A stretch of DNA of 64,000 bases from Mucilaginibacter sp. (GTDB lineage: Bacteria; Bacteroidota; Bacteroidia; Sphingobacteriales; Sphingobacteriaceae): contig JAQBOA010000089.1 in the NCBI GenBank assembly GCA_028288305.1, positions 1-64,000 of the forward strand. Reading direction: 5' to 3'. Made by a program: the position numbers and the translations under genes. Positions 13,513 to 50,385 of the stretch are shown piece after piece (positions within the stretch are counted from its first letter, which is position 1; each line of letters begins with the position of its first letter). The notes beneath the pieces are model-generated. The model was not told where the DNA came from. It saw only the letters and a program-made list of their open reading frames with translations, and did not search any database.

Positions 13513-13550
13513 AAAAGTCTCCCCTACAGGGGGAATTCTAGAGAGGGCCT
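13513..13550. repeat. Partial copy of the AGTCTCCCC repeat family
   Basis: AAAAGTCTCCCCTACAGG, then GGGAATTCTAGAGAGGGCCT, matches the first half of the elements at 20608-20675 and inside alaS (46153-46216, reverse strand). The stem CCCCTACAGGGGG is intact. It lies between icd and the antitoxin gene. Confidence 0.6.
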
Positions 13551-20476: not shown

Positions 20477-20607
20477 TGGCTTTAATTGGCCTATAAGTAA
20501 ATGGAGATTGACTAATTGTAAAAGTTGAGTCAATTAATTCAATATATTAACGTGAGTTTGGTATAATCTTATATTTGCCTCATTCTAGCCCAAATGGAAC
20601 CGGAAAT

Positions 20608-20675
20608 AAAAAGTCTCTCCGCCTGCTGGCGGAGGAGGTATAGAGGGGGCTTCCCTTGGAGAGGATTAGATAAGG
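20608..20675. repeat. AGTCTCTCC...AGAGGGGGCTTCCC repeat element
   Basis: The order of words (AAAAAGTCTCTCC, a GC-rich hairpin CCGCCTGCTGGCGG, TAGAGGGGGCTTCCCTTGG, AGAGGATTAGATAAGG) is the same as the minus-strand reading of 46153-46216 within alaS. A shorter copy is at 13513-13550. The internal stem CCGCC/GGCGG is strong. It lies in the 249-bp gap between the PBP gene and the next gene. Confidence 0.75.
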
Positions 20676-44287: not shown

Positions 44288-47113
44288 TTAAACAATAAAA
44301 TTCTTTGCTTTTTCAAGTGCACGACCCAACCCACTAACATCACTCCCCCCTGCTGTAGCAAAAAACGGCTGACCACCTCCACCACCTTTTATTTCTTTAG
44401 CAAGTTCGCGGACAATACTGCCTGCGTTCATATTTTTTTCTTTTACCAGGTTTTCGGCAATCATTACTGTTAAACCGGGTTTACCGTCGATCTCAACAGC
44501 CAGTACCAGGAAAAGATTAGGTACAATATCCTTAATCTGATAGGCTAAATTTTTAACAGCATCGGCATTGGGTAGTTCCACCTTTTGAGCAATAAAGCTA
44601 ATTCCGTTAATTTTCTCAGCTTTTTGGGCAAGCTCATTTTTTAAACCTGACGATTTTTCGAGTATTGATTTTTCAATTTCCTTTTTAAGCTTGTTGTTTT
44701 CATCAAGCAAGCTTTCTACGCTTTTTGAAATATCTTTCGGATTTTTAAGCAGTTCTTTTAATTGATTAACCAATTTACTTTGTTCGTTAATATAATTTTC
44801 CGCAGCTATGCCGGTAATAGCTTCAATACGGCGCACCCCGGCAGCTACAGCGCTTTCAGCAATTATTTTAAAGAAACCGATATGTCCGGTAGCTTTAATA
44901 TGCGTACCACCGCAAAGCTCTTTGGAGAATTCGTCGTCGAAAGTTATTACACGTACAAAATCGCCATACTTTTCGCCAAACAGCGCGGTTACCCCACTGT
45001 CTATTGCTTCCTGGTAAGGCACATTGCGTTCTTCTTTTAAACCAATATTGTCACGAACCTTTTCATTAACAATGGCTTCTATATGCGCCAATTCATCATC
45101 GGTCACTTTTGCGAAATGTGAAAAATCAAAGCGCAGATATTCAGCATTAACCAACGAGCCTTTTTGATTTACATGACTGCCCAATACTTGTTTTAAAGCC
45201 GCATGAAGCAAATGGGTAGCGCTATGGTTATTCTCAATGCTTTCCCGCCGTTCTTTGTCGACAATAGCTGTAAGTGCATCACCAATAGCTTCGTTATCTG
45301 GCAGTTTATCAACATAATGAACAATCAGGCCATTTTCTTTTTTGGTATCGGTTACTTCTATAATCTCACCATCGGGAAAAACCAGCTCGCCGGTATCCCC
45401 TACCTGTCCGCCGCTTTCAGCATAAAAAGGTGTTTTGTCTAATACAATTTGGTATTGCTCTTTTCCTTTGGCAGTTACTTTGCGGTATTTTATAATGTGG
45501 GCAATAGTTTCCGTTTCATCGTAACCGGTAAACTCAACAGTATCATCGTCTTTTAAAACTATCCAGTCGCCGGTATCAATGGCAGTGGCGGCACGGGAGC
45601 GGGATTTTTGTTGTTGGAGTTCGATTTCAAAACCATCCAAATCGACAATCCATCCATTTTCTTTTGCTATTAACTGTATCAAATCGAGAGGAAAGCCATA
45701 TGTATCATATATTTCAAATGCAACTTTTCCATTAATAAGATAAGGCTGATTTAAGACTTTACTTAAATCGTATTCGTTTTTATTAAGCTTGCCAATTACT
45801 TTAAATCTTTCAGCGGCTCTTTCTAATTCATTTAAATTCAAACGTTCAAGTCCTTTTTCAAGAGTTCTCAAAAAAGAATTCTCTTCTTCCAAAACCACCT
45901 TCTGCACAAAATCCTTCTGGTTGTATAATTCATGAAACACCCCTTTAAACTGATCCGCCAATAATGGCACCAACTGGTTTAAAAATGGTTCTTTGAATCC
46001 TAAATATTGATAAGAATACCTAACCGCCCTGCGTAAAATACGGCGAATAACGTAACCGGCTTTATTATTAGATGGTAGTTGACCGTCAGCAATAGCAAAA
46101 CTGATTGCTCGGATGTGGTCGGCCATTACACGCATGGCAATGTCTGTTTTCGCCTCACCTAAATCCTCTCCAAAGGAAGCCCCCTCTAAATCTCCCCCGG
46201 TTGGGGAGACTTTTTTGTTTTGGGTTTCATTTTCAGTTTCCACATTAGAACCTTCTCCTTTGGAGAGGGCAGGGTGAGGCACTTGAGGCGCTTGATAAGG
46301 TATTCCGCTTTTCTCCGCAATAAACTGTATCAACGGCTGAAATACATCTGTATCATAGTTAGAAGTTTTCCCTTGCAGTACCCTTACCAACCGCTCAAAG
46401 CCCAAACCAGTATCCACATGTTTTGCAGGTAAAGATTGTAATGATCCATCCTTCAACCGGTTAAACTGCATAAACACGTTATTCCATATCTCAATCACCT
46501 GGTCATGGTCCGCATTAACCAAACTTTGGCCTTTCACTTTTAACCTTTCACCTTCTTCCCTACTATCGTAATGTATCTCTGAGCAAGGACCGCAGGGTCC
46601 AGATTCGCCCATTTCCCAAAAATTATCTTTTTTGTTACCCGGTAAAATATGTGATTCGTCAACATATTGTTTCCATAGATTGTAGGTTTCTGTATCTTTT
46701 TCAAGCCCTTCTTTTTCATCGCCTTCAAAATAGGTTACATAAAGTCTGTCTTTAGGCAGTTTATAAACTTCCGTCAGCAGTTCCCAGCTCCAGGCAATGG
46801 CTTCCTTCTTAAAGTAGTCGCCAAAGCTCCAGTTACCCAGCATCTCGAACATGGTATGGTGATAGGTATCAATACCCACCTCTTCCAAATCGTTATGCTT
46901 GCCTGATACGCGCAGACAGCGTTGCGTGTCAGCAACACGGGGAAATTTCGCGGCTTCCTCACCCAAAAAAATGGACTTGAATTGGTTCATACCCGCATTG
47001 GTGAACATCAATGTAGGGTCGTTTTTTACAACAATAGGTGCTGAGGGAACAATAACATGTCCTTTTGATGCAAAAAAATCAAGAAAAGCCTGGCGTATTT
47101 CGGTAGCTGTCAT
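44288..47113 (-). CDS. alaS: Alanyl-tRNA synthetase with in-frame repeat insertion
   Basis: The 941-residue class II synthetase has the catalytic domain beginning EIRQAFLDFFASKGHVIVPSAP and FTNAGMNQFK. The editing domain has HSATHLLHAAL and the zinc site CGGTHIKATGHIG. The C-Ala domain ends GGGGGQPFFATAGG. Many bacterial AlaRSs are about 870-880 residues. The excess is partly explained by about 43 residues between PYQAPQ and AKTDIAMRVMADH (VPHPALSKGEG to FGEDLGE), which are coded by a dispersed palindromic repeat (46153-46279). The gene is probably still functional because all conserved motifs remain. A TAnnTTTG box ends 7 nt before the start. Confidence 0.96.
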   Translation of the reverse strand: MTATEIRQAFLDFFASKGHVIVPSAPIVVKNDPTLMFTNAGMNQFKSIFLGEEAAKFPRVADTQRCLRVSGKHNDLEEVGIDTYHHTMFEMLGNWSFGDYFKKEAIAWSWELLTEVYKLPKDRLYVTYFEGDEKEGLEKDTETYNLWKQYVDESHILPGNKKDNFWEMGESGPCGPCSEIHYDSREEGERLKVKGQSLVNADHDQVIEIWNNVFMQFNRLKDGSLQSLPAKHVDTGLGFERLVRVLQGKTSNYDTDVFQPLIQFIAEKSGIPYQAPQVPHPALSKGEGSNVETENETQNKKVSPTGGDLEGASFGEDLGEAKTDIAMRVMADHIRAISFAIADGQLPSNNKAGYVIRRILRRAVRYSYQYLGFKEPFLNQLVPLLADQFKGVFHELYNQKDFVQKVVLEEENSFLRTLEKGLERLNLNELERAAERFKVIGKLNKNEYDLSKVLNQPYLINGKVAFEIYDTYGFPLDLIQLIAKENGWIVDLDGFEIELQQQKSRSRAATAIDTGDWIVLKDDDTVEFTGYDETETIAHIIKYRKVTAKGKEQYQIVLDKTPFYAESGGQVGDTGELVFPDGEIIEVTDTKKENGLIVHYVDKLPDNEAIGDALTAIVDKERRESIENNHSATHLLHAALKQVLGSHVNQKGSLVNAEYLRFDFSHFAKVTDDELAHIEAIVNEKVRDNIGLKEERNVPYQEAIDSGVTALFGEKYGDFVRVITFDDEFSKELCGGTHIKATGHIGFFKIIAESAVAAGVRRIEAITGIAAENYINEQSKLVNQLKELLKNPKDISKSVESLLDENNKLKKEIEKSILEKSSGLKNELAQKAEKINGISFIAQKVELPNADAVKNLAYQIKDIVPNLFLVLAVEIDGKPGLTVMIAENLVKEKNMNAGSIVRELAKEIKGGGGGQPFFATAGGSDVSGLGRALEKAKNFIV
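46153..46279. mobile_element. 127-bp palindromic repeat lying in frame inside alaS
   Basis: The element has imperfect inverted ends: CCTCACCTAAATCCTCTCCA from 46153 and the reverse complement of CCTCACCCTGCCCTCTCCAA ending at 46279. Its left half, read on the minus strand, has the same word order as the intergenic element at 20608-20675 (AAAGTCTCCCC, GGGGGAGATTTAGAGGGGG, CTTCCTTTGGAGAGGATTTAG, GTGAGG). It codes about 43 extra residues of polar sequence in AlaRS. No target-site duplication was measured. Confidence 0.8.
46530..46552. repeat. CCTTTCAC word of the 5901-5977 family inside alaS
   Basis: CCTTTCACTTTTAACCTTTC and ACC match the right arm of the intergenic element at 5950-5973 with a few changes. 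It codes GERLKVKGQ in AlaRS, in a region where the protein length is otherwise normal. It may be a replaced stretch or a chance similarity. Confidence 0.4.
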
Positions 47114-48135: not shown

Positions 48136-48182
48136 TTGTTGATTGAAAGCCTATCTTTATTTTTTACATATTTTAAAAAATA

Positions 48183-48270
48183 TGTCATTGCGAGCGATAG
48201 CGTGGCAATCTCCGCCATGCATTACGGCTATGCAAAGTTCGCGATTGCCACGCTATCGCTCGCAATGACA
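48183..48270. repeat. Perfect 28-bp palindromic element across the 5' end of the comEC frame
   Basis: TGTCATTGCGAGCGATAGCG, then TGGCAATC (48183-48210), is exactly complementary to 48243-48270. The 32-nt loop contains GCATTACGGCTATGC. The comEC frame is open through the element and would code VIASDSVAISAMHYGYAKFAIATLSLAMT, a string forced by the palindrome and not by a protein family. Family members are at 16467 and 38978. Confidence 0.9.
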
Positions 48271-48282
48271 ATTGAGTCACCT

Positions 48283-50385
48283 ATGCTCGCAAATCACAAA
48301 GGGGAAATACCTGTTGTTATATTACTGCTTCCTTTTTTGATGGGCATTGGGCTTGGGTTTAATTTGTTATCGGGCGCAAATACAATCTGGCTAATAGCCT
48401 CATTCTTTTTCCTGACCCTTGTATTTGTCCTGTTAAATTTCAATTACAATAAGTTTAAGCTGTATAAATTCAGGTGGATTGGCGGCTTACTCATTACCTT
48501 AATGTTATTTTTATTTGGTTGGTTAAACGTTGTAAGTTATAAAGAGCTTAATAACGGCAATCACTTTTCAAAAATCCCCGCTCAATACCTTGTTGTAAAA
48601 ATCAGTAACGAACCAAATATAAAAAACGGCCTAACGCGCTTTACTGCTGATATAATTGAAAATGTAAATACCGGCAAAAAATCCAGCGTAAGCGGAACAT
48701 TGCTCGTAACCACAAAAGATAGTTCTGCTAAGGATCTTTACTACGGCGATGAGTTACTGATCCCTGCAAAATATAACACGATTGAGCCTCCTTTAGTCCC
48801 GGCAGCTTTTAATTATAAGCAATACCTCGCTAATCAAAACATTTTCTACCAGGCTTATTTGCTTCCCAAACAGTATGTAATAGTAAATACCAATGTCGGA
48901 AACCCCATTATTGCTTATTCGTTACGCTTAAGGCAGCGCCTTGTTGAAAAACTAAAACACAACATGCGGGATACCGACGCCATTGCGGTTGCATCAACCT
49001 TGATTTTAGGTTATAAAGCTGATTTAAGCAGTGATGTTTTGCAGGCTTATTCCAAAACGGGTACTATTCATGTACTTTCAGTTTCGGGCGCACATGTGGC
49101 AATAATTTATATTCTGCTTACCCTTATTTTTGGGTTTTTGGATCGTTATAAACATGGCAAACTGCTAAAAGCAATCATTATTATTGCCATCATCTGGTAT
49201 TATTCACTGCTTTCAGGATTTTCACCGGCGGTTTGTCGTGCAGCGGTAATGATTAGTATGGTTATTATTGGTAAAACCTATAGCCGATACATTAACACAT
49301 TAAATATACTGGCAATTTCGGCTTTCTTACTTTTATTGTACGATCCCTTTTTTATAACCGATGCAGGTTTTCAATTATCATACCTCGCTGTTTGCGGCCT
49401 TATCGTTTTTCAGCCTATCGTGTACAAATGGTTTAAGTTCAAAAATAAATGGGCCGATAAATTATGGGCGCTCAGTTCTGTTTCTTTAGCCGCCCAGGTA
49501 ATTACTTTTCCTTTAAGTGCCTTCTATTTCCACCAATTCCCGGTTTATTTTTTAATCAGCAACCTGTTCATTATCATTCCTTCAACAGTAATCATGTATT
49601 CGGGTATACTTTTTTTATTGCTGCCGCAAATACCAATAATTTCTAAGTCCTTAGCATATATTCTGGAAAGATCCATTATAATAATGAACAAAACACTGAC
49701 TATTATTGAGCATACACCTTATGCCAGTATTAGTAAAATATGGCTTACCACATCCGAATATTTGCTATTATATGCTATGATCATTAGCCTTTTTTATTTT
49801 TTGTATGATAAAAAATTGTGGCTACTTAAGGCGAGCTTAATTTGTACCTTATTATTTTGCCTGAGTATTAGCATAAAAAGGATCCGTTTATCAGGGTCAG
49901 ATAATATTGCATGGTTAAATCTTAAAAAGCATAAAGGGGTAGTTTTTAAAAATGGAAATAACGCAATTGTACTATCTGATCTCAAGTCGACCGATAAAAA
50001 TTACCAATATTCCATACAACCTTATCTTGATAGCTGCCAGGTAAGCAATGTCAAACTGCTGGATTTAAACCAGGATATTAAAACTGATTGGATGATGAAA
50101 AAATATAATCTTATTCAGTTTTTGAATAAAAAAATATTTATTTATAATCGTAAACTTAGAAATAATTTATTCTCTCAAAAATTAAAAACCGACTATATTT
50201 ATCTCACCGGCGATAAGGATTTAGGATTAAATGAAATAAATAGTAACTTCAATTACCAAATACTTATTTTAGATGGAAGCAATTCAGATTATTTAATAAG
50301 CAATGTAAAACAATTAAATAAAAATAAACGCGACAGTTATATTATATTAAAAAGTAACAAATCGTTCATTTCCGTATCTAACTAA
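48283..50385 (+). CDS. comEC: ComEC/Rec2-family DNA-uptake membrane protein
   Basis: The protein is 700 residues from the ATG at 48283 (MLANHKGEIPVVILLLPFLMGIGLGF). The open frame begins at a TTG at 48136, but its first 49 codons are mostly the palindromic element, so I place the start after it (an ATG at 48265 is a further option). It has the N-terminal DUF4131 region with two helices, then the Competence domain with about 9 helices including TGTIHVLSVSGAHVAIIYILL and SGFSPAVCRAAVMISMV. The C-terminal part (about 170 residues) is diverged and without a clear metallo-beta-lactamase motif. ComEC forms the inner-membrane DNA channel. Natural competence is not shown. Confidence 0.9.
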   Translation: MLANHKGEIPVVILLLPFLMGIGLGFNLLSGANTIWLIASFFFLTLVFVLLNFNYNKFKLYKFRWIGGLLITLMLFLFGWLNVVSYKELNNGNHFSKIPAQYLVVKISNEPNIKNGLTRFTADIIENVNTGKKSSVSGTLLVTTKDSSAKDLYYGDELLIPAKYNTIEPPLVPAAFNYKQYLANQNIFYQAYLLPKQYVIVNTNVGNPIIAYSLRLRQRLVEKLKHNMRDTDAIAVASTLILGYKADLSSDVLQAYSKTGTIHVLSVSGAHVAIIYILLTLIFGFLDRYKHGKLLKAIIIIAIIWYYSLLSGFSPAVCRAAVMISMVIIGKTYSRYINTLNILAISAFLLLLYDPFFITDAGFQLSYLAVCGLIVFQPIVYKWFKFKNKWADKLWALSSVSLAAQVITFPLSAFYFHQFPVYFLISNLFIIIPSTVIMYSGILFLLLPQIPIISKSLAYILERSIIIMNKTLTIIEHTPYASISKIWLTTSEYLLLYAMIISLFYFLYDKKLWLLKASLICTLLFCLSISIKRIRLSGSDNIAWLNLKKHKGVVFKNGNNAIVLSDLKSTDKNYQYSIQPYLDSCQVSNVKLLDLNQDIKTDWMMKKYNLIQFLNKKIFIYNRKLRNNLFSQKLKTDYIYLTGDKDLGLNEINSNFNYQILILDGSNSDYLISNVKQLNKNKRDSYIILKSNKSFISVSN

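Follow-up and report, generated by a model that had tools for sequence, protein, structure and literature searches.

Palindromic repeats in frame within alaS of a Mucilaginibacter genome, and DUF559 nuclease domains between such repeats in host genes of its relatives

Introduction

How does a dispersed palindromic repeat come to lie in frame inside an essential gene, and what carries it there? The question is raised by alaS, the alanyl-tRNA synthetase gene of a Mucilaginibacter sp., within the 64,000-nucleotide stretch of DNA analysed here (the window; positions 1-64000 of contig C82 in a draft genome, G000, of 4.9 Mb and ~91% completeness). A preliminary description of the window had recognised a translated 127-bp repeat with inverted ends in this gene. 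We found that the repeat belongs to a family of repetitive extragenic palindromic (REP) sequences spread through the genus and that, in the leuS and icmF genes of related species, REPs in inverted orientation flank a DUF559 nuclease domain, all in the reading frame of the host. We propose, with a probability of about 0.6 for the whole chain of argument, that these are homing-like REP-DUF559-REP elements carried in frame and that alaS holds a non-autonomous relic of one of them.

Results

An in-frame composite of repeats in alaS

The alaS gene of the window (44288-47113, minus strand) is intact. It is a single open frame of 941 amino acids, scores 904.8 bits against the alanine--tRNA ligase model TIGR00344 (cut-off 457) and is single-copy among genome matches at E<=1e-50. 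Compared with the empty alleles of relatives, such as SGIPYGKEE-KTDIAMRV or SGKKYNSAAKPGDADWNDAVAMRV, it contains an in-frame inserted segment of 44 codons (V278-A321; 46151-46282, minus strand). The in-frame position was thereby confirmed, and the proposal that an essential gene tolerates the repeat when the frame is kept was supported; the insert, first put at about 43 residues, measures 44 codons. Outer inverted arms GCCTCACC and GGTGAGGC were located at 46152-46159 and 46273-46280, inner arms at 46165-46177 and 46256-46268 are complementary at 13 of 13 positions, and an inner hairpin lies at 46188-46212. Folded as a single strand, the element reached -29.3 kcal/mol against -16.2 +/- 3.0 for shuffled sequences (z -4.4; none of 200 as good), in keeping with the inverted ends first described.

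An AlphaFold2 model of the window AlaRS was built from 40 AlaRS rows (mean predicted local distance difference test score, pLDDT, 81.8; predicted template modelling score, pTM, 0.56). Residues 276-320 formed the longest stretch with pLDDT <50, four further such stretches of 4 to 10 residues each lying within residues 31-90. The inserted segment is thus predicted to lack order and to form a loop that connects helices 259-269 and 319-342, and alignment to the best solved AlaRS chains left a gap between query residues 273 and 323. It is apparently read as protein.

The palindromic arms of the element are genuine, but one simple palindrome it is not: the 127 bp are a composite of an inverted pair of REPs of one type (REP-A) with a second type (REP-B) replacing part of one arm. 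Used as a query, the segment split into a left arm (bases 1-35), a middle (66-103) and a right arm (103-127). The truncated right REP-A arm (GCCTCACCTAAATCCTCTCCAAAGGAA; 46152-46178, plus strand) gives SFGEDLGEA in the alaS frame, and several copies in other parts of the genome match query bases 103-127 with 100% identity. Next to it lies the REP-B unit (46179-46213, plus strand), with the hairpin GTCTCCCC-AACC-GGGGGAG and then ATTTAGAGGGGGC on the minus strand. REP-B reads KVSPTGGDLEGA, scores 55.7 bits (E 9e-12) against the repeat model and has 100% identical copies on contigs C55 and C57. A spacer between the arms (46214-46246, minus strand), SNVETENETQNK here, is hypervariable between species. 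Finally, the left REP-A arm (GCCTCACCCTGCCCTCTCCAAAGGAGAAGGTTCT; 46247-46280, minus strand) reads PHPALSKGEGS, and query bases 1-35 recur with 100% identity at C76:6771-6805. The common architecture of the repeats is an outer end of CC(C/T)C type, an unpaired CTAAAT, an 8-bp hairpin and ACTTT.

REP-B is found elsewhere alone or as inverted pairs, and the left and right REP-A arms occur together as an 82-bp inverted pair at two loci, L011 and L022 (C76:6771 and C51:6541). Because five relatives (G098, G133, G087, G103 and G130) have the REP-A pair without REP-B in the same alaS loop, a portion of the right REP-A arm in the window appears to have given way to REP-B. At L011 and L022 the pair is nested in a larger unit, possibly a further miniature element, whose inverted ends are near AATGTCGTTTACTTAAG.

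Occupied and empty alaS loops across the genus

We searched 149 genomes of the genus for alaS; 143 matched, and loci were taken from 133. A script read the loop in 127 of these, and G130 brought the total to 128, the other five lying at contig ends or being missed by the pattern. A recognisable REP was present in 13 of the 128 loops. The alignment with relatives proposed in the preliminary description thus did reveal empty sites, 115 of the 128 loops having no recognised REP; target-site duplications, which were also to be looked for, were not recognised at the alaS junctions. Besides the five REP-A pairs and the composite of the window, the occupied loops held REP-B (G120), a single REP-A (G139), a third type, REP-C (G035, G091, G085 and G147), or a REP-A arm in opposite orientation (G011, read by eye). 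What the loops share is a DNA repeat, in varied subtypes and orientations, and no amino-acid pattern conserved across the genus. A scan allowing <=9 edits recovered 12 of the 13 REP loops and none of the 115 others. Four genomes (G015, G117, G134 and G078) have other insertions, which were not counted as REPs, although that of G015 might be a decayed one. Among named alaS genes, mostly of other genera, no REP was found in the 46 readable loops (80 genes fetched).

On an alaS tree of 124 of the 128 rows (G089, G071, G117 and G105 being too short) and 480 columns, the distribution of REPs requires 11 gains or losses, at least 9 of them forced by well-supported branches. Clustering of the REP carriers barely exceeded that of randomised labels, 53 of 500 shuffles needing as few changes. 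Among the five REP-A pairs, arm identity averaged 95.9%, against 78.0% for flanking alaS and 53.1% for third positions in these flanks; the most similar 69-nt flank window of each pair averaged 90.3%. Since the arms of the four genomes other than G130 are 98.6-100% identical, beyond their flanks, they are too alike to have been simply inherited with the gene, and point either to recent independent arrival or to conversion or selection that maintains their likeness.

The length of the loop is variable across the genus, in REP-less genomes as well; in L257 (G078) and L385 (G134) it contains a stretch rich in Glu or Gly. Another region of strongly variable length, at AlaRS residues ~424-459 (longest in L161, L162 and L163), was inspected and contained no convincing REP match. 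The alaS gene L040 (G004) has an additional insertion of ~44 residues near residue 222.

DUF559 domains between inverted REPs inside host genes

The leuS and icmF genes were compared in 30 chosen relatives, comprising carriers of alaS REPs, their neighbours and REP-rich genomes; the occupancy fractions below describe this chosen set and are not estimates for the genus. REPs recurred at the same two leuS loops, with 32 matches in 31 frames versus none in codon-shuffled copies (one each). In leuS loop 2, 6 of 31 frames contained a REP, a domain of ~110 residues and an inverted REP, all in frame. The domain is DUF559 (PF04480, E 1e-32), and a solved relative is the endonuclease-like protein PDB 3hrl (E 1.5e-18). 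The same arrangement was present in leuS loop 1 of one genome of 30 (G087) and in the third icmF loop of 10 of the 21 genomes read, further icmF genes in other genomes being arranged likewise. Of 22 genomes tried, 21 gave a readable icmF site; the G147 row began at a false anchor, its DUF559 being plain. For G120, G098 and G038, the stop codon listed for icmF lies just before the start or after the end, and none lies inside. The other species of the set had REPs alone, or no REP, in these loops, so that occupied and empty alleles exist among related species at conserved leuS and icmF sites. Peptides encoded by REPs were counted in 11 of 30 (leuS site 1), 15 of 31 (leuS site 2) and 14 of 21 (icmF) cases by a strict pattern, which makes these numbers lower bounds.

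DUF559 was likewise found in frame in truB (G036) and in a gene for an Lhr-like helicase (G035, G046 and G027). At seven loci (L484, L485, L486, L490, L495, L497 and L498) a related DUF559 frame continues, uninterrupted by stops, into the beginning of hisF, and at L489 into hisH; the junction is a palindromic sequence resembling SPFRGRGG. These cases may be fusion proteins, or the gene start may be overlapped by the repeat, with a start codon further downstream.

The nuclease is under purifying selection. Positions E, RRQH, D-F, E-DG-H, D--R and RF-N are shared by 36 DUF559 domains, and the median ratios of nonsynonymous to synonymous differences (pN/pS) were 0.27 in icmF, 0.23 in leuS loop 2 and 0.30 in hisF, uncorrected values with synonymous sites near saturation. 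In the DUF559 tree the domains follow their host sites, except that the leuS loop-1 copy of G087 falls within the icmF group (support 89/84), which suggests one move of the nuclease between host genes.

Ends and derivatives of the nuclease elements

The ends were analysed at 30 DUF559 loci, one genome each, among the matches listed. Inverted palindromes flank DUF559 in 28 of the 30, each scoring above the best of 20 mononucleotide shuffles; these 28 scored at least 14.5, and 80 alaS control loci at most 14.0. The five stand-alone DUF559 genes of this set fit the pattern, with palindromes of differing sequence. The REP-A and REP-B words of the window alaS closely resemble the ends that icmF-type and leuS-type DUF559 elements have elsewhere (L483, L487, L488 and L492).

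The leuS gene of G130 retains both REPs and the first part of the domain but, compared with its relative G120, has a 351-bp in-frame deletion inside the element; near-matching heptamers (CCgACCG and CCtACCG) stand at the junction. Judged by this alignment, the G130 allele is an internal-deletion derivative of the element. In leuS loop 2 of G098 (L432) the right REP is present four times in frame, as KVSPPVGGGDLEEA, KVSPTGGDLEGA and, twice, KVSPAGGDLEGA; since it is repeated in this way, the ends of the element can expand by themselves. Just outside the window, at G000:C82:78543-78878 (L127), a stand-alone DUF559 gene is bordered by dissimilar palindromes, which end in ACTCACCC and GGGGTGAGT.

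The repeat family in the genome and beyond

Words of the element are not confined to alaS, and the dispersal claimed for them was borne out. The 127-bp query matched its own genome 68 times at E<=10, with the best matches after the element itself at 9e-14 to ~1e-11, and a 34-position repeat model gave 133 at E<=1. The 111 strongest of these 133 (22 weaker ones being left out) grouped into 93 clusters, of which 18 contain two units. Eighteen of the 93 clusters lie within open frames of at least 180 codons. Ten are internal, defined as having at least 90 codons of open frame on each side, and eight are near frame ends or doubtful. The 10 internal clusters are deep inside seven genes: alaS, leuS (two), icmF (three), miaB, and genes for a protein resembling the adenylation proteins of nonribosomal peptide synthetases (NRPS), a DUF255/thioredoxin-like protein and a protein without family match. 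With their inserts, alaS, leuS, icmF and miaB still score above curated model cut-offs, and a single Pfam domain spans the insert in miaB, in the NRPS-like gene and at the first leuS insert. Copies inside genes are read in a small number of ways, mainly as KVSPTGGDLEGA or KVLSFGEDLGEA and as APSKSPPVGET or ASPKSSPKERT; their other frames are likewise open.

The two further copies reported in the window are real but weaker. A degenerate relative of the element lies at 20592-20667 (plus strand; 77% identity, E 7e-9; model match at 20610-20649 with 22.3 bits, E 0.017), and a degenerate REP-B copy at 13514-13547 (minus strand; 27.7 bits, E 5e-4). Weak REP-like inverted pairs were also seen on contig C55 (8351-10951 and 55380-57953 of G000:C55, among others), where at each of two places such pairs stand ~2.5 kb from one another, perhaps in repeated genes. 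At 48184-48275 of the window, an inverted pair, GTCATTGCGAGCGATAGCGTGGCAATC...GATTGCCACGCTATCGCTCGCAATGAC, stands at the start of a long open reading frame (48136-50385); we presume that it resembles REPs of the CGTC type.

In 61 genomes of the genus, repeat matches at E<=0.001 numbered from 0 to at least 115 per genome, and 57 of the 61 had at least one. In a sample of the phylum, 15 of 296 genomes matched at E<=1e-6 (best 23 candidates per genome scored): four of the genus and two of the family, with 1 to at least 23 matches, and nine elsewhere (G337, G195, G256, G263, G359, G381, G382, G416 and G439), with 1 to 4. Transfer, or a wider family, is possible for the matches outside the family.

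Discussion

A homing-like element and its relic

On the reading proposed here, the alaS segment would be a REPIN-like inverted pair with a second repeat, drawn from a genus-wide family that also forms the ends of DUF559 elements. The full element, consisting of REP, DUF559 and inverted REP in ~0.5-0.75 kb and stop-free in one frame, could lie within a host gene, where it would be translated as a domain insertion with linkers encoded by the REPs. The nuclease would cut the empty allele at its site, and repair would copy the element in, in a homing-like manner and without intron or intein splicing; rare ectopic events would seed new loops. Because the REP ends would be read as hydrophilic linkers, the host enzyme could fold around the insert and the element could persist. 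Internal deletion would then leave REP pairs or single REPs, kept where the frame is intact and the loop tolerant, and alaS would carry a remnant of this kind, since altered by REP-REP insertion or conversion. We infer, in this scheme, nuclease action on empty alleles and on REPs, homing and translation. Conserved frames, together with the failure to find an intein or intron (below), argue for plain translation, although sampling by open frames favours such cases.

Alternative explanations

Several observations weigh against our reading, and we set them out together with the rival explanations. The most serious rival holds that DUF559 is a passenger: REPs would have been moved by another enzyme into tolerant loops, and the nuclease captured between them later by recombination, so that REPs might instead be landing sites. 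We consider this unlikely, though it deserves the most attention. The nuclease at each host site is mostly a lineage of its own, and movement between hosts rests mainly on G087. DUF559 was found in none of the 128 alaS loops; the link of alaS to nuclease elements therefore rests on shared end sequences. In those alaS comparisons that include G130, the REP-A arms (90-91% identical) did not exceed the similarity of the best flank window (88-93%), and the lack of recognised target-site duplications also counts against our reading. Spread is not explained by allelic homing alone, since 75 of the 93 clusters lie outside open frames of at least 180 codons. In favour of our reading, REP counts rose with DUF559 counts in 61 genomes (rho 0.47, p 1.4e-4) and in the 48 that are at least 95% complete (rho 0.46, p 9e-4), though this comparison ignores phylogeny, scores the best 115 REP candidates per genome and includes DUF559 types with other palindromes. 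G060, 99% complete, has 67 REPs and neither a DUF559 nor a RAYT (REP-associated tyrosine transposase) match, and G042 has 51 REPs and no DUF559 match. REPs can thus be numerous without DUF559 or RAYT, and either the mover can be lost or there is another. Speaking against a passenger, inverted palindromes of unrelated sequence flank stand-alone DUF559 genes (L502, L505 and L506), and nucleases of the hisF and truB types have palindrome types of their own, which suggests co-evolution of nuclease and ends.

A second explanation is that these are ordinary REPINs spread by RAYTs, the in-frame copies being accidental survivors. Inverted pairs with variable spacers do look REPIN-like, going by the accessible portion of PMC3116915, and RAYT-like genes were found in 55 of 61 genomes with a profile of five RAYT-like proteins. 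RAYT loci, moreover, have inverted flanks at least as often as DUF559 loci, scores of at least 22 being reached at 23 of 27 RAYT, 10 of 30 Y1 and 14 of 30 DUF559 loci. Yet the present repeat lies within ~1.5 kb of only 1 of 30 RAYT loci, REP and RAYT counts were uncorrelated (rho 0.12, p 0.36), and G057, G060, G053 and G036, in which no RAYT was matched at E<=1e-10, have 103, 67, 33 and 26 REPs. The consensus, CCCCCTCTAAATCTCCCCC..., also lacks a GTAG or similar tag 5' of the hairpin. Taken together, these results leave the RAYT explanation distinctly improbable.

RAYT/Y1 enzymes were examined as candidate movers in their own right and rejected: Y1_Tnp has seven matches in the window's own genome, and the loci examined there, in 20 REP-rich genomes and with the RAYT-like profile in 61 genomes give no pointer to the present REPs. 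Two of 37 Y1 loci had a convincing match to the present REPs; one gene, from G046, is in both the Y1 and the RAYT sets.

It is very improbable that the 44 residues are a selected feature of the protein, a functional AlaRS extension whose likeness to a repeat is secondary. Loop length does vary in the genus without REPs, so extensions are possible, but the same loop holds differing repeats in differing orientations and readings, the arms are conserved as DNA beyond their flanks, near-identical copies exist elsewhere in the genome, and the segment is predicted to be disordered. We give equally little credence to removal of the segment from the mature product by RNA or protein splicing or by ribosome bypass: nucleases in conserved genes are usually paired with splicing elements (PMC3943268, in the part available), but the inserts keep the frame and are stop-free, which splicing or bypass would not need (open-frame sampling again favouring such cases), no intein (Hint splicing) domain was matched in Pfam at E<=1e-4 in six fusion proteins, and a Rfam scan of eight loci returned nothing, group I and II introns at gathering score included.

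Returning to in-frame REP-DUF559-REP elements, we see an even balance for and against the broadest form of the proposal, namely that DUF559 with inverted REPs is a new class of translated selfish element, a homing nuclease that enters essential genes in frame and needs no splicing, with palindromic ends serving as flexible linkers, that the REPs and REPINs of the genus, alaS included, are its deletion derivatives, and that DUF559 is a second REP-associated nuclease family beside the RAYTs. The host appears to translate a nuclease, or its palindromic remnant, through LeuRS, AlaRS, IcmF, TruB or a helicase. If the proposal holds, it would provide a possible non-RAYT mover for the REPs of a bacterial group and explain the origin of disordered linkers and domain insertions in essential enzymes; the occupied and empty alleles in 149 genomes of one genus would be a natural experiment on the frequency with which selfish DNA enters proteins. 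For annotation, it would be a warning that REP-encoded residues in housekeeping proteins are not host-derived.

Comparison with known systems

The preliminary description had likened the insert to Rickettsia palindromic elements (RPEs), which belong to another phylum and presumably to another sequence family. We know of no nuclease associated with RPEs. The parallel holds in that both are in-frame palindromic inserts in housekeeping genes, with truB a host in both (PMC3733652, as far as its excerpts go). As the sole precedent it does not hold, for excerpts of the same paper report intragenic REPs from several species, with tRNA synthetases among the hosts, and CGTC repeats from Bacteroidetes; it also missed the DUF559 lead. 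By itself, the alaS element is a new case of a known kind, and its setting among nuclease elements goes further.

The GTAG/CGTC REPs of that paper (PMC3733652, excerpts) are found in genes of several bacteria, among them tRNA synthetase genes, truB and repair genes, and like them the present repeats are intragenic short palindromes, single or paired. The present repeats differ in that the consensus has neither a GTAG nor a CGTC tag, its end reading ...GACTTT, and in that they recur at the same host loop across many species with changing subtype and flank DUF559. The word 'homing' is absent from the excerpted text.

REPINs are inverted REP doublets with a spacer (PMC3116915, accessible portion), and RAYT subclass 2.6, mostly from Bacteroidetes, is flanked by atypical structures (PMC6006769, likewise in part). 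The present elements resemble the REPIN/RAYT system in their inverted pair of short palindromes with variable spacer and in having an enzyme gene flanked by REPs; unlike it, the enzyme between the REPs is a DUF559 nuclease and not a Y1 transposase, and the examined RAYT loci are unlinked.

Among the papers listed by searches of the open-licence PMC literature, judged mostly by title and the start of the abstract, none connects REPs with DUF559 or reports in-frame elements of this sort; the peptide word PLSFGEG was not found there, and DUF559 combined with 'homing endonuclease' gave nothing to the point, again going by titles and the opening of abstracts. Organelles are known to have in-frame inserts that are palindromic or code for an endonuclease, as in fungal mitochondrial GC clusters, double-hairpin elements and the Allomyces atp6 insertion. 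We know of no precedent in which inverted palindromes enclose a nuclease within several housekeeping genes of bacteria.

DUF559 may be akin to the EDxHD (Vsr-related) nucleases, and like them it has conserved acidic and His residues. EDxHD homing endonucleases and inteins share with the present elements a nuclease inside conserved hosts, empty and occupied alleles and site-specific lineages, and homing endonucleases are described as able to enter conserved genes because of their self-splicing partners (PMC3943268, available part). Unlike in those systems, no self-splicing partner was found in the six fusion proteins and eight loci scanned here, and the nuclease appears to stay in the host protein as an inserted domain with REP-encoded linkers.

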